Shown: piece by piece, positions 53,233 through 59,992 of the stretch | How positions within the stretch are numbered: the stretch's first letter is position 1 | How the letters are laid out: every line of letters starts with the position of its first letter | Origin: Pedobacter segetis | GTDB taxonomy: Bacteria; Bacteroidota; Bacteroidia; Sphingobacteriales; Sphingobacteriaceae | Assembly: GCF_016623585.1 (NCBI RefSeq) | Contig: NZ_JAEHFY010000008.1 | Coordinates: 1-64,000, forward strand | Length of the DNA stretch: 64,000 nt | Reading direction: 5' to 3' | The notes under the pieces: model-generated | Told to the model about the DNA's origin: nothing | The model's database searches: none | Seen by the model: only the letters and a program-made list of their open reading frames with translations | Translations under genes and position numbers: made by a program

Positions 53233-53310
53233 TTAACGTTAAATTAACATTGTAGTGATGGTTAATTAATCTTTACATAACAAGCCCGTAACATTAGCCT
53301 AATACTTTTG
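53233..53310 (+). promoter_or_regulatory. Six-site 11-bp phased array and promoter of the TonB receptor
   Basis: Six half-sites occur at exact 11-bp steps: TTAACG (53233), TTAACA (53244), GTGATG (53255), TTAATC (53266), ATAACA (53277) and GTAACA (53288). The last begins 15 bp before the -7 box TACTTTTG (53303-53310) and takes the place of a -33 element. Direct repeats with 11-bp period are how PhoB/OmpR-family regulators bind; the TTAACA word resembles the Bacillus PhoP site. The regulator is not in the window. Confidence 0.7.
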
Positions 53311-53331
53311 CAGCAACTAAAACATGCAAAA

Positions 53332-56109
53332 GTGAAACAAAAGTTCTTTCTAAAATCTATAAAAATCAGTATTGTTCTAATTTTGATTACAACGTCTGTT
53401 TTTTCGCAAACAGGCAAAATTGCGGGTAAAGTAACCGATAAAAAAACAGGTGAAACCTTAATTGGTTTAAGTATTGGTATTGAAGGGACAAATAAAGGCA
53501 GCGCTACCGATGTGGAGGGTAGGTTTGTTATCCCTAATCTTATTCCTGGTAAATACAATGTAACTTTTAGATACATAGGTTACCAAACCAAAAGCATTAC
53601 TGGAGTAGAAGTGAAATCAGGTGCGGTAACAAGCTTAAACATTATCATGGAAGATGCTGCTACGCAAGCCTTAAACGAAGTTGTGGTAACCGCTTCTTAC
53701 AGAAAGGCTTCTGTTGGGGCTTTGTATGCACAACAGAAAAACAATATTAGTATCTCAAGCGGCATCTCATCAGACATCATTAAAAGATCGCCTGATAAAA
53801 ACACCTCAGAAGTTCTAAAAAGAGTAAGCGGTGCATCAATTCAGGATAATAAATTTATAGTAGTTAGAGGGTTATCTGATAGGTATAACTCTGCCATGCT
53901 AAATAATGCCGTGTTGCCAAATACGGAAGTTGATAGAAAAGCATTTTCTTTCGATATCATCCCTTCAAATTTAATTGATGCAATTGTAGTTAACAAAACC
54001 GCATCGGCAGATATTCCGGGTGATTTTTCTGGTGGTGTTGTTCAGGTAACCACTAAAGATTTCCCCGATTCAAAGTTCCTAAATCTTTCATTAGGTACTT
54101 CTTACAACACGCAATCAACTTTTAAAGATTTTTTGACCGCTCCTAAAAGCGGAAACGAAATTTTTGGTTTTTATGATAAAGGCAGGGATATTCCTTCAAG
54201 CTTTCCTTCAAAAGCCGAGTATTTGGCTTTACCGAGCCAAGGGCCAGAGCGATTTGAACTTTCAAGAGCTTTTAAAAATAATTGGGGCTACAATAATGTA
54301 ACTTCTAAATTAGGGCCAATTTTCCAGGCAAATTATGGGAACAGCAAGATTTACGATAACAATAATAAATTCGGGACGATCTTGTCTCTTTCTTATCGCT
54401 ATGACGAGCGTTTAAAAGACGTTAACCAAATAGCTTACACAGGGCAAAACGTGGGAGACAAGTTTAATGACCAAGTTTATAGCTATAATACCAATATCGG
54501 CGGGCTGGCAAACTTTGCGTATTCATGGGGGAACAACAAAATTGCCCTAAAAAATCTATACAATAGAGTTTTAGAAAGTCAATTTACCAATAGGATCGGT
54601 GTAGATGAAAGTAGTCAGCCGTTTTCTAGAACTGCGAATTATTTATTACAGCGTTCATTGATTAGCGACCAGCTTAGCGGCGAACATTTGCTTTCTGAAG
54701 CAAGAAAGGTAAAATTAGATTGGAACCTTAACTATGCAAATACAGATAGGAAAGAACCTGGGTTTAAAAGGATGGAATATTCACAGGGTATAGCTTCGGT
54801 GCCAAACGGATCTTCTGATCCAAGATTGGGGGGTAACTTTTCATCGCTATTAAATGAAAACTCTTACGGAGCTGCAACAAACGTTGTTTTTCCTGTAAAA
54901 TGGTTTAGAGACAACAATAAGCTAAAATTCGGATATTTTGGCCAGCTAAGAAAAAGAAACTTTAAAGCAAGGGTAATAGGTTTTATTAAGGATGTTAATT
55001 TTGATGATAACGCTGCATTATCATTACCGCAAGATCAGATATTTGCTGCCGATAACATCAGGCCTAAAGGTTTTGTTTTAGATGAGATAACAAACGGGAG
55101 CGACGCCTATGATTCTAGATCTTTGTTAAATGCCGGTTATGTAATGTTTGATGGCTTTGTGAAGGAAAAATTAAGGGTGGGGGCAGGTGTAAGGCTTGAA
55201 TCTTACAGGCAACAACTTACAAGTGCCGATAATTCATACACACCTATTATAGTTGATACCACCTACGTAAATGTGCTTCCTTCTGTTAACTTGATCTATA
55301 ATTTAACAGAAAAATCTAATTTTAGGTTATCTGGGTCAAAAACAATTGGAAGGCCAGAGTTTAGGGAAATAGCGCCTTTTTCTTTTTACGATTTCAATAA
55401 AAATATTTCTGTACAGGGAAATTCTAAACTAAAACAATCAAGTACTATCAATCTAGATCTTGGATTTGCAACCTATCCCAACAACGGAGAAACATTTTCT
55501 ATATCGGCGTTTTTCAAAAGTTTTGATTTGCCCATAGAGCAAACTTTGCAATTGGGCACCAGCGGGCGTACGGTTGGGTATTCAAATGCTAAATCTGCCA
55601 CGCTTTTTGGAGTAGAAGCAGAAATCAGGAAATCTTTAGGTTTTATTGGCGACAGATTTAAAAACATAACATTTAGCGCAAATGCCTCATATATCAAATC
55701 TAGAGTTGTTGTATCAAAGTTGGTAAATAAAGATGGTTTTAGACCGCTTCAAGGCCAGTCGCCATATCTGATAAATACCGGTTTACAATATATTTCGCCT
55801 TCAATTAATCCCTTTGGCCTTAGTTTATTGTATAATAGGATAGGGAAAAGGATTTATGCCGTAGGAAATGTCCTAGATGGGGATATTTATGAGAACCCAC
55901 GTAATATTTTAGATTTCCAACTTTCAAAAAAGGTGGCTAATTCTAAAGGAGAGTTTAAGATAAATTATAGCGATATACTAAACAATAAAGGTATTTTTTA
56001 TCAGGATGCCAATAAAAACGGAAGCTTTGATAAAAATTCTGATTATATAAATATCTCGGAGAGATATGGATCTAGTGTGTCTTTGAGCTTTGCCTATACT
56101 TTTAAATAA
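53332..56109 (+). CDS. TonB-dependent outer-membrane receptor
   Basis: From the GTG at 53332 (MKQKFFLKSIKISIVLILIT) the protein is 925 residues with a cleaved signal peptide ending VFSQ. A carboxypeptidase-regulatory-like domain follows (GKIAGKVTDKKTGETLIGLS, about 29-105), then a plug (about 115-230; VVVRGLSDRYNSAMLNNAVL-like) and a long beta-barrel ending SVSLSFAYTFK. The longest ORF starts at TTG 53308, inside the -7 box, so it is not used. Its ligand is unknown. No SusD-like lipoprotein is present; instead a beta-helix lipoprotein with the same promoter array follows. Confidence 0.88.
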   Translation: MKQKFFLKSIKISIVLILITTSVFSQTGKIAGKVTDKKTGETLIGLSIGIEGTNKGSATDVEGRFVIPNLIPGKYNVTFRYIGYQTKSITGVEVKSGAVTSLNIIMEDAATQALNEVVVTASYRKASVGALYAQQKNNISISSGISSDIIKRSPDKNTSEVLKRVSGASIQDNKFIVVRGLSDRYNSAMLNNAVLPNTEVDRKAFSFDIIPSNLIDAIVVNKTASADIPGDFSGGVVQVTTKDFPDSKFLNLSLGTSYNTQSTFKDFLTAPKSGNEIFGFYDKGRDIPSSFPSKAEYLALPSQGPERFELSRAFKNNWGYNNVTSKLGPIFQANYGNSKIYDNNNKFGTILSLSYRYDERLKDVNQIAYTGQNVGDKFNDQVYSYNTNIGGLANFAYSWGNNKIALKNLYNRVLESQFTNRIGVDESSQPFSRTANYLLQRSLISDQLSGEHLLSEARKVKLDWNLNYANTDRKEPGFKRMEYSQGIASVPNGSSDPRLGGNFSSLLNENSYGAATNVVFPVKWFRDNNKLKFGYFGQLRKRNFKARVIGFIKDVNFDDNAALSLPQDQIFAADNIRPKGFVLDEITNGSDAYDSRSLLNAGYVMFDGFVKEKLRVGAGVRLESYRQQLTSADNSYTPIIVDTTYVNVLPSVNLIYNLTEKSNFRLSGSKTIGRPEFREIAPFSFYDFNKNISVQGNSKLKQSSTINLDLGFATYPNNGETFSISAFFKSFDLPIEQTLQLGTSGRTVGYSNAKSATLFGVEAEIRKSLGFIGDRFKNITFSANASYIKSRVVVSKLVNKDGFRPLQGQSPYLINTGLQYISPSINPFGLSLLYNRIGKRIYAVGNVLDGDIYENPRNILDFQLSKKVANSKGEFKINYSDILNNKGIFYQDANKNGSFDKNSDYINISERYGSSVSLSFAYTFK

Positions 56110-56112
56110 AGC

Positions 56113-56190
56113 TTAACATTGGCTTAACCAAAAGTAACAGGTTTCTTAATCTTAAAATAACCTTAAGGTAATTTAGCTAGGATATTTTTA
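56113..56190 (+). promoter_or_regulatory. Second 11-bp phased array and promoter of the beta-helix lipoprotein
   Basis: Half-sites TTAACA (56113), TTAACC (56124), a shifted GTAACA (56134), TTAATC (56146), ATAACC (56157) and GTAATT (56168) repeat the layout of the array at 53233, including the order TTAAC, TTAAC, G.., TTAATC, ATAAC, GTAA. The last site is again 15 bp before the -7 box TATTTTTA (56183-56190). The array begins four bases after the TonB receptor stop codon. Confidence 0.7.
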
Positions 56191-56213: not shown

Positions 56214-57614
56214 ATGAAAAACTTTAAATCGAAAATTTTCTTAGCCTCTGTAATCGGGATCTCTGTATTTGCATCTTGTAAAAAAACCTCAAGTGGTGGC
56301 GACCCAGTAATCATAGGTGATAATTCTGAAAGTTTAAATAGTTCTTTCTTTGAGAGAGTGAATTATAAAGGTGCTTTTGGTAATACAGACTGGACTTCTG
56401 GTTGGGCTAATTACAATCCTCAGAATACTGATTATCCAGCTACAAATGCAACATTATCGGGAAATATAACTACAAACACCACTTTAGATGCTTCTAAGGT
56501 TTATTTATTATCCGGATTTGTTTACGTAAAATCTGGCGTTACCTTAACTATCCCGGCAGGTACTATTTTAAGAGGCGACAAATCTAGTAAAGGAACCATC
56601 ATTGTACAACAGGGTGCTAAAATTGCTGCCGAAGGTACAGCCTCTAAACCAATTATATTTACTTCAAATTTGGCAAAAGGTTCAAGGTCTCCTGGTGATT
56701 GGGGAGGGGTTATTTTATTAGGTAAAGCACCTAACAATATACCAGGTGGTGTTGGCGTGATTGAAGGAGGGGTAAACGTTACTACCGAAGGTAACCATGG
56801 TGGTACAGATCCTGCGGATAACTCTGGGATTATGAAATACGTTCGTATCGAGTTCCCTGGCATCGCTTTTCAACCAAACAATGAAATAAATGGATTAACG
56901 TTTGGCTCTGTTGGTACGGGAACCACGATAGATTACGTTGAAGTTTCTTTTTCTGGTGACGATTCTTATGAATGGTTTGGCGGTACGGTTAATTGTAAGC
57001 ACCTAATTTCTGTTTCTAATGTAGATGATTCTTTTGATTTTGATAACGGCTTTGTTGGTAAGCTGCAATTCTGCGTAGGCCAAAGAGATCCCCAATTAGC
57101 AGACCAAGCAGGGCAATCCAATGGTATCGAATCAGACAATTCTGAATCTGCTTTTACCACAACACCAAGAACTCGCCCGGTTATTTCAAACATGACCATT
57201 ATTGGCCCGGTTTCAAGTTCAGCGGCTTTGGCTTCGGTTGATCCAAAACATGAGCATGCAAATCTTTGGAGAAGGGGTTCTAAAATGATCCTAGGAAATT
57301 CAATCTTTATAGGTTTCAAATACGGTTTAAATATTCGTGATAAGGAAACCGGAGATGCTTTAACCGATGGTTCATCTTTGATCACCAATAATATTTACCA
57401 ATCTTATGTCCCTAATTTAGATATAATCGCATCAGGTTCAATTCCTTCATTCGCTTCGGTTGATCTATTGAAATCTTATTTTACTTCTAAGGGTAATTTG
57501 AATATAAACGAGGCTACTTCCCAGACTTTATTAAACTCACCTTTTAGTTTAACAGCACCTAATTTCACATTAAAAACAGGTTCTTCTGCTGCCACCGGAG
57601 CGAAATTTAATTAA
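56214..57614 (+). CDS. Beta-helix surface lipoprotein, TonB-receptor partner
   Basis: A 466-residue protein with a lipoprotein signal (IGISVFASCKKTSS; lipobox FASC, Cys22). The mature part is a long parallel beta-helix of short strands (TLTIPAGTILRGDKSSKGTI, GVILLGKAPNNIPGG, SVGTGTTIDYVEVSFSGDDS) about 60-400. No enzymatic motif is seen. Paired with the TonB receptor directly upstream and carrying the same promoter array, it is probably a surface-exposed ligand-binding partner of that receptor. Family names in databases vary and are not reliable. Confidence 0.7.
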   Translation: MKNFKSKIFLASVIGISVFASCKKTSSGGDPVIIGDNSESLNSSFFERVNYKGAFGNTDWTSGWANYNPQNTDYPATNATLSGNITTNTTLDASKVYLLSGFVYVKSGVTLTIPAGTILRGDKSSKGTIIVQQGAKIAAEGTASKPIIFTSNLAKGSRSPGDWGGVILLGKAPNNIPGGVGVIEGGVNVTTEGNHGGTDPADNSGIMKYVRIEFPGIAFQPNNEINGLTFGSVGTGTTIDYVEVSFSGDDSYEWFGGTVNCKHLISVSNVDDSFDFDNGFVGKLQFCVGQRDPQLADQAGQSNGIESDNSESAFTTTPRTRPVISNMTIIGPVSSSAALASVDPKHEHANLWRRGSKMILGNSIFIGFKYGLNIRDKETGDALTDGSSLITNNIYQSYVPNLDIIASGSIPSFASVDLLKSYFTSKGNLNINEATSQTLLNSPFSLTAPNFTLKTGSSAATGAKFN

Positions 57615-58237: not shown

Positions 58238-59992
58238 CTAAAGATTCTTCCCTAGTTTCTCCAACATATCGGTGGGTACGCTTTCAAGATCTAAAACCAA
58301 AAATCCGTCTAAACAATCAGAAAATTTGGGGTCTATGTTAAAGCAGATTATTTTTGCATTTAATGCGATATATTGCCTCAACAAAACGGGCACTTTGATG
58401 TGCGATGTTTCAATCTCGCCGATAAGGCTATCTAAATTTTTTAAAGAGCTACTGCTCGCCGTCAAAATATCGGCATCTATTTTAGAAAAATCTACCTTAA
58501 ATTGTTTACGGGGTTTTACCATTTGCGCCATCTCCGCATCAAAATGATTGCGATAAATAAAGTTGACAATCAAAGATTTTGAGAATTTACTAAAAGCATT
58601 GCTTATAGAAACCGGGCCGATCAGATATTTATATTTCGGATTATCGATCAAATATTTTAAGATCCCTTTCCACAATAAAAATAAAGGCAGGGGGCGTTGC
58701 TGATACTCTTTTCTGATCCAAGACCTTCCCAATTCTAAACTTTGCCTTAAAATTGGGTAAAATTGTTCTTTGATCTTAAAAAGCTCATAAGTGTAAAACC
58801 CTTTTTTCCCGTAGCTATAATAAATCTCATCGCCTTTACCAATTCTGTAGGCACCTACGATCATTTTTGCCTCAAAATCCCATATAAATAGATGGTTATA
58901 GTAAATGTCATAAGCATCCAGATCTGATGATTTATTGGTTCCCTCGCCAACTTCCCTAAAAGTAATTTCTCTTAACCTACCTATTTCTTTGATGATATTG
59001 GTAATATGGATGGTAGGGGTTATAAAAACCTCGTAGTTTTTCTCTGTCCAAACTAGGTAGTTTTCTCTTAGGTTTTCTACTTCGCCTTCAATCAGTTCTT
59101 GTGAAATAGGCTCGGCCAAATCATCAGGTTGTTTATTAACCTTAAAAAGGTTCTGGTGATTAAAGATCTTTCTTTCATTTTCTAAACCGGCACCTAAAGC
59201 ATAGGTTTTAGCCCTTAAATAGGCTAACATGCTGGTATTGTTGGTATTATCCGGAATGTCGTTAAAAGCTATTGGCTTCCCAATTCTTACTCTAATGGTA
59301 TGTCCTTTTTTATTAAACAATTCAGAAGGTAATTTTGCGGTTCTTAAAGTTGGGTGTATCAATGCCAATAGGTTAAATAACAAGCCGTTGTTGCCGTGGA
59401 AATAAATGGGCAGCACCGGAGCCTTTGCCTTGTTAATTATTTTGCCCACTACCGGGTGCCATAGTTTATCTGTAACTTGTTGTTGGCCCAATTTATACGT
59501 AGAAACTTCGCCCGCGGGGAAAATACCAATAGGAGTGCCCGATTTTAATAAACCCAATGTGGTTTTAATACCACTGATGCTTGATGAATGCTCTATATTT
59601 TCAAAAGGGTTTACCGCTACAAAAAAATCGCTAAGGTTAGGGATCTTTTTGAGGATAAAATTGGCCATTACCTTGGCATCTGGCCTAATGGTACACAAAA
59701 CCTTAATTAAAATAAGCCCTTCTATTCCTCCATAAGGATGATTGGCTATTGCAGTAAAAGCACCCTCTAATGGGATGTTTTTCCAATCGTTTTCGCTAAT
59801 TTCTACTTTAACGCCAACTAATCTAAGTATTTCATCTACAAACTCAACACCTTCAAAGTTCTCGGCTGCTTCAAAAGTATCGTTAATGTCGTTTATCTTC
59901 ATAATCTCCATCAACAATGAAGCAAGCCCGGGCATTCTTAATTTATTTAGCTTGGTTGCTTTTGCAAATTCTTCTGAGGTAATGATCTTCAT
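58238..59992 (-). CDS. Fused acyltransferase, OlsF-type ornithine/glycine lipid synthase
   Basis: A 584-residue fusion. The N-terminal PlsC-like domain has IANHPYGGIEGLIL (about 82-95, H-x-x-x-x-E/D box), AGEVSTYKLGQQQVTD and PVLPIYFHGNNG. The C-terminal half is an OlsB-type GNAT (LREITFREVGEGTNKSSDLD, YYNHLFIWDFEAKMIVGAYR and KYKYLIGPVSISNAF). This order and length match OlsF, which N-acylates ornithine (or glycine) and then O-acylates the product to make membrane aminolipids. The amino-acid substrate is unknown. Separated from gluconokinase by a GGGGTT repeat. Confidence 0.75.
   Translation of the reverse strand: MKIITSEEFAKATKLNKLRMPGLASLLMEIMKINDINDTFEAAENFEGVEFVDEILRLVGVKVEISENDWKNIPLEGAFTAIANHPYGGIEGLILIKVLCTIRPDAKVMANFILKKIPNLSDFFVAVNPFENIEHSSSISGIKTTLGLLKSGTPIGIFPAGEVSTYKLGQQQVTDKLWHPVVGKIINKAKAPVLPIYFHGNNGLLFNLLALIHPTLRTAKLPSELFNKKGHTIRVRIGKPIAFNDIPDNTNNTSMLAYLRAKTYALGAGLENERKIFNHQNLFKVNKQPDDLAEPISQELIEGEVENLRENYLVWTEKNYEVFITPTIHITNIIKEIGRLREITFREVGEGTNKSSDLDAYDIYYNHLFIWDFEAKMIVGAYRIGKGDEIYYSYGKKGFYTYELFKIKEQFYPILRQSLELGRSWIRKEYQQRPLPLFLLWKGILKYLIDNPKYKYLIGPVSISNAFSKFSKSLIVNFIYRNHFDAEMAQMVKPRKQFKVDFSKIDADILTASSSSLKNLDSLIGEIETSHIKVPVLLRQYIALNAKIICFNIDPKFSDCLDGFLVLDLESVPTDMLEKLGKNL

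Follow-up and report, generated by a model that had tools for sequence, protein, structure and literature searches.

The locus and its two promoter arrays

Within the window, which is the whole 64,000-nucleotide stretch of Pedobacter segetis DNA analysed here, a gene for a TonB-dependent receptor of 925 amino acids (53332–56109, plus strand, its GTG start being inferred) is followed by the gene for a lipoprotein (56214–57614, plus strand). The receptor contains Plug, CarboxypepD_reg-like, and OMP_b-brl_3 domains (Pfam PF07715, PF13715, PF13620, and PF14905). The lipoprotein (56214–57614) has no Pfam family match and is predicted to be a right-handed β-helix of the pectin-lyase-like kind on the basis of its AlphaFold model (mean pLDDT of 80) and Foldseek, in which the best matches were AlgE epimerases (AlgE4), tailspikes, and pectate lyases, all of them weak (best E of 1.5e-3) and with low TM-scores.

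Directly upstream of the receptor gene, in a region of 73% A+T, lies array 1 (53233–53293, plus strand), comprising the 6-bp words TTAACG (53233), TTAACA (53244), GTGATG (53255), TTAATC (53266), ATAACA (53277), and GTAACA (53288) in steps of 11 bp. The first-pass annotation had described six words at exact 11-bp intervals; the spacing is indeed exactly 11 bp, whereas the quality of the words is uneven, five of the six being good matches to NTAAY and the third (53255–53260) a weak one that reads GTGATG in the window and is NTNA-like among homologues. The −7 promoter box TACTTTTG (TAnnTTTG; 53303–53310, plus strand) had likewise been placed 15 bp beyond the array, a distance that holds when counted from where the last word begins but not from where it ends (53293), the gap there being 9 bp. 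The position of this box predicts a transcript start and short leader at 53315–53331 on the plus strand. The longest receptor reading frame begins at a TTG (53308) inside the −7 box, the GTG at 53332 being the likelier receptor start. The same in-frame TTG was seen again in relatives, giving reading frames that begin with MQQLN, MCKLK, or MLQIK.

Array 2 (56113–56173, plus strand) sits 3′ of the receptor gene and 5′ of the lipoprotein gene in the same phase as array 1, with the words TTAACA (56113), TTAACC (56124), TTAATC (56146), ATAACC (56157), and GTAATT (56168), all on the plus strand. These five are perfect, while the remaining slot at 56135 is off by one base, as GTAACA sits at 56134. 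A −7-like box, TATTTTTA (56183–56190, plus strand), follows, its distance from the first base of the last word being again 15 bp.

When matches to NTAAY were summed across six phased words (maximum of 24), array 1 scored 23 with five perfect words, and array 2 (56113), at 21 with five perfect words, was the next best place in the window among those listed, shifts of array 1 aside. A score of 23 was reached in none of 200 simulated 64-kb windows (first-order Markov, both strands), where the largest was 22, and five perfect words occurred at a single place across all 200. Short patterns behaved differently. In genome-wide scans, the TTAAC-N6-TTAAC pair showed no enrichment (25 matches versus 33 for the backward pattern), and neither did two units plus the −7 box with up to two mismatches (92 versus 122), while a four-unit pattern with up to three mismatches gave 14 versus 11. 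Short patterns are thus of no use across the genome, and what stands out is solely an array that is long, phased, and linked to a promoter.

Conservation of the receptor promoter

A match to the lipoprotein was found in 52 of the 60 genomes searched, P. segetis included, and one stretch was taken from each of 40 relatives. Exact TAnnTTTG was present in 22 of 34 receptor upstreams (the window included) and missing from the other 12, one of which (L106) is cut by a contig end. Eighteen of the 22 promoters, from the window and 17 genomes, formed a gap-free alignment; the four excluded (L119, L131, L133, and L140) keep the register of the words but have fewer good ones. The layout is kept without gaps across all 18, although single words fail in single rows, such as the first word in L115.

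Information content, calculated on 17 rows after dropping a near-duplicate, peaks at word bases 2–5 (means of 1.95, 1.42, 1.89, and 1.37 bits versus 0.44–0.92 elsewhere), and a period of 11 gives the largest information spread (permutation p of 5e-5, 17 rows). In the third word, bases 2 and 4 are conserved and base 3 is not (17 rows). A normal −33 element had been reported as lacking, and this holds throughout the alignment, as TTG or TTTG occurs 17–24 bp before the −7 box in none of 17 aligned promoters. Array 1 thus holds a fixed position in the window and relatives, just 5′ of the promoter core and occupying the −35/−33 place. Its reality as a feature is confirmed.

Matching promoters in the P. 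segetis genome and its relatives

Two models were built from the receptor promoters alone, one reading them forwards (R1) and the other backwards (R2, as a control). After the receptor itself, R1 ranked the lipoprotein (E of 1e-4) and DUF47 (0.04) promoters in the P. segetis genome, with that of PlcP at 1.4; since the best match of the backward control reached an E of 0.18, R1 matches above about 0.2 are not trusted alone. A third model (R3) was trained on 42 promoters, all taken from other genomes (16 receptor, 14 DUF47, and 12 PlcP). Its top rank in P. segetis went to the operon of DUF47 and the PiT transporter (3.4e-7), with the receptor second (8.5e-7), the lipoprotein third (0.008), and a metallophosphatase operon of the PlcP type fourth (0.019). 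This ranking should be read with the composition of the training set in mind, as orthologues of the receptor, DUF47, and PlcP promoters were included, having been placed after the sites in P. segetis had been seen, and the lipoprotein is the sole held-out family. By Pfam, the first operon encodes DUF47 (PF01865) and PiT (PF01384) with a histidine kinase upstream of DUF47, and the PlcP-type operon encodes a metallophosphatase (PF12850) and then a glycosyltransferase.

Next in rank to the PlcP match, similar to it in strength and without a link to phosphate, are a good array-like sequence between nadA and nadB (L250; C11:118973–119014, minus strand; E of 0.024) and a match at C22 (E of 0.037) that overlaps coding sequence. 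The nadA/nadB, C22:183364, C8:5892, and C6:113209 matches were all taken as noise or unproven. A second pair of TonB receptor and lipoprotein genes (L072:7853–12049; C33:23.8 kb) is preceded by five words in phase, of which two are imperfect; it was weak with R1 (E of 1.2) and, on the coding strand, absent from the R3 list.

The same promoters were also scored in relatives. DUF47 upstreams, examined in 28 of 29 fetched loci with a score of two words plus the −7 box (maximum of 14), reached at least 13 in 21 of 28 cases, as against 0.05% of Markov resamples. In the stretches of the 40 relatives, a score of at least 13 was found for 22 of 178 gene upstreams, divided between 21 of 73 upstreams of the receptor/lipoprotein type and 1 of 105 others, namely the PhoB-like gene of L132. 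For PlcP, where 420-bp upstreams from 27 of 30 fetched loci were scored to a maximum of 18, at least 15 was reached by 26 of 27, where real upstreams from other genes did so in 6 of 99 cases, and at least 17 by 11 of 27 versus 1 of 99. Real upstreams are the proper comparison here, as Markov resamples understate chance at this length (1.3% versus 6/99 at 15 or more). Both the DUF47 and PlcP sites were placed via a best-scoring search, and close relatives among these loci are not independent. An array in the same phase is common to the DUF47/PiT, PlcP, receptor, and lipoprotein promoters of P. segetis and its relatives. The expectation in the first-pass annotation that 11-bp-phased TTAAC clusters would be commoner at phosphate genes is thereby borne out, both by the four top R3 ranks (DUF47/PiT, receptor, lipoprotein, and PlcP) and by the contrast between 21/28 DUF47 upstreams and 1/105 others.

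Lipoprotein loci across the phylum

The best 80 of at least 594 relatives of the lipoprotein were fetched as named loci, of which L350 and L355 are labelled as other phyla and the rest as Bacteroidota or close kin. A receptor was present in 75 of the 80, and 20 included a PhoB-like regulator sharing 50% identity or more, while a PiT-like protein, as judged by eye, follows the receptor in three (L345, L351, and L354). When three words were scored at different periods, 11 came out strictly ahead for 49 of 76 lipoprotein upstreams, compared with 33 of 228 upstreams of other genes, and each of the other periods led in 0–1 of the 76. In these loci, 11 was strictly best for phoB upstreams in 12 of 21 cases and for receptor upstreams in 13 of 58.

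Exact TAnnTTTG was found in only 12 of the 76 lipoprotein upstreams within the stretch searched, and in these 12 the three-word score peaks 15 and 26 bp from the box, at 8.6 and 10.6. Peaks at the same two distances (7.8 and 8.3) were seen in nine phoB upstreams. For the receptor gene that follows, six upstreams showed no clear peak with distance from TAnnTTTG, and 52 other upstreams were flat at 4.3–5.0. The phoB group does not amount to independent evidence because these genes are mostly divergent neighbours of the lipoprotein gene: 17 of the 21 named cases have the divergent orientation, with 15 of these genes directly adjoining it.

Related regulatory systems

The E. coli PHO box has the word CTGTCAT, and its regulator PhoB replaces the upstream promoter element. 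In Bacillus subtilis, PhoP sites read TT(A/T)ACA with an 11-bp period and several repeats; array 1 is very similar in word, period, and use of repeats, and differs in phylum and promoter core. Riemerella anatipestifer is itself a member of the Bacteroidota. Its PhoPR is described as up-regulated in phosphate starvation, with a DAP-seq motif for PhoP whose most conserved nucleotides are TTTAACA and with EMSA on its own promoter as well as on that of a TonB receptor (PMC9603813). The site resembles the array word and a TonB-receptor promoter is likewise a target, but the portions of that report dealing with PhoP say nothing of spacing, of array length, or of the phase relative to a −7 box. E. 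coli PhoB binds two 11-nt direct repeats head to tail (PMC4415409), from which array 1 departs in its TTAAC word, its TAnnTTTG core, and its six units in a row. For Bacteroides fragilis, PhoB is described as binding the pstC promoter, with no motif given where this binding is described (PMC3547664).

Counterparts of the gene pair are documented in Flavobacterium johnsoniae, where the receptor Fjoh_0545 (pf07715, pf13715, and pf14905) and the lipoprotein Fjoh_0546 (IPR011050) are listed in a PhoBR operon, with fold-changes of 8.0 and 9.9 under Pi depletion, these being log2 values going by the usage of the text (PMC8115612). They are likened to the pair in the window by domain make-up, namely the same three receptor Pfam domains and the pectin-lyase label. 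The word “promoter” does not appear in the main text on Fjoh_0545/0546, whereas array 1 is a promoter feature. The same source reports that plant-associated Bacteroidota lack PstSABC and take up phosphorus via outer-membrane receptors and SusCD-like complexes (PMC8115612).

Apart from the Riemerella motif, no phased TTAAC array or Bacteroidota PHO-box consensus was found among the matches listed in the open-access literature. The array is a PHO-box-like operator and hence of a known kind; as far as the literature searched goes, the phase rule relative to TAnnTTTG and the spread across Bacteroidota are new.

Candidate regulator and proposed mechanism

Array 1 most probably serves as the operator of a promoter activated by phosphate starvation: a PHO-box array, read by a PhoB-type regulator, that would stand in for the −33 element and switch on the receptor. 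A phosphate-starvation (or similar) promoter for outer-membrane uptake had been proposed from the window at the outset, and the phosphate interpretation gains support from the recurrence of the array at phosphate genes.

The best candidate for the regulator is a PhoB-like response regulator of 228 amino acids (C12:40297–40977) with a PF00072 receiver and a PF00486 winged-helix domain, a choice that rests on its genomic context together with the TTTAACA motif described for PhoP in Riemerella. The receptor/lipoprotein pair adjoins a PhoB-like regulator in several relatives, and the C12 protein shares 63% identity with the regulator that neighbours the pair in L129. Phased TTAACA, TTAATG, and TTAATC words precede the C12 gene, where the R3 match is weak (E of 0.7, rank 15) and no clear −7 box lies at 15 bp. 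The histidine kinase beside DUF47 is not adjacent to this candidate. PhoU (TIGR02135) had no match at an E of 0.001 in the P. segetis genome, while 13 of the 14 control genomes did give one, so phosphate sensing in this genome probably operates without Pst-PhoU.

Under low phosphate, an OmpR/PhoB-type response regulator, for which the C12 protein is the best candidate, would be phosphorylated and would then bind the 11-bp-phased half-sites head to tail, probably with a maximum of three dimers lined up along a single face of the helix. The −7 box TAnnTTTG is described as spanning −12 to −5 in Flavobacterium psychrophilum (PMC9723704), by which array 1 would cover about −82 to −22, the place of the absent −33 element included. 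Since the proximal half-sites cover that place, the bound regulator may be expected to bring RNA polymerase to the TAnnTTTG box and so switch on the TonB receptor, and array 2 would act likewise for the lipoprotein. What the sequence shows is the array itself, how it is conserved, its constant phase relative to the −7 box, and its reappearance at phosphate genes; we infer which regulator is involved, that it is phosphorylated, that it activates, and what the ligand is.

A small chance is left for another member of the OmpR/PhoB family, responding to iron, envelope stress, or redox, as the reader of the array. Direct repeats of 11 bp serve several members of this family, and at least four other response regulators of the genome align over their full length (ranks 2–5). 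A resemblance to the ArcA motif has also been noted for the Riemerella PhoP motif (PMC9603813). What speaks against a regulator unrelated to phosphate is the array shared by the PiT/DUF47 transporter, the PlcP-type phosphatase, and the receptor/lipoprotein pair, together with the PhoB-like nature of the regulator adjoining the pair in relatives and the reported response of the Flavobacterium counterparts to phosphate rather than to iron or nitrogen limitation (PMC8115612). Repression or dual control, in which the bound array would block RNA polymerase at high phosphate, is improbable: the array overlaps the −33 place, where a repressor could also sit, but without a −33 element a repressor would have nothing to compete for. 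In addition, the array keeps a fixed phase to the −7 box, and induction on phosphate starvation is reported for the Flavobacterium counterparts (PMC8115612). That the words merely reflect chance or a periodicity of DNA structure, with A/T tracts at each helical turn and no protein involved, is barely conceivable even in a region of 73% A+T and was rejected in view of the simulated windows (0/200), the centring of conservation on the word bases, the period of 11 rather than 10 or 12, and the flat upstreams of other genes.

Returning to the array as a phosphate-responsive operator, a wider and decidedly speculative reading is that the Bacteroidota share an ancient PHO-box grammar of 11-bp TTAAC half-sites register-locked to TAnnTTTG at 15 or 26 bp. 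Each promoter might then owe its activation threshold to the length of its array and to a single half-site kept deliberately weak (the third in array 1), such that uptake at the outer membrane, PiT transport at the inner membrane, and the turnover of lipids would switch on in order without PhoU. Word, period, and fixed distance to the core would together allow phosphate regulons to be predicted from sequence only, genes of unknown function included.

Beyond the lipoprotein gene, the window encodes an OlsF/GlsB-like aminolipid acyltransferase (58238–59992, minus strand; NCBIfam NF052615, below cut-off). It was rejected as a target of the array, and its upstream does not figure among the six best minus-strand places in the window. 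An OlsF-like gene is present in 7 of the stretches from the 40 relatives and fits with the use of phosphorus-free lipids.
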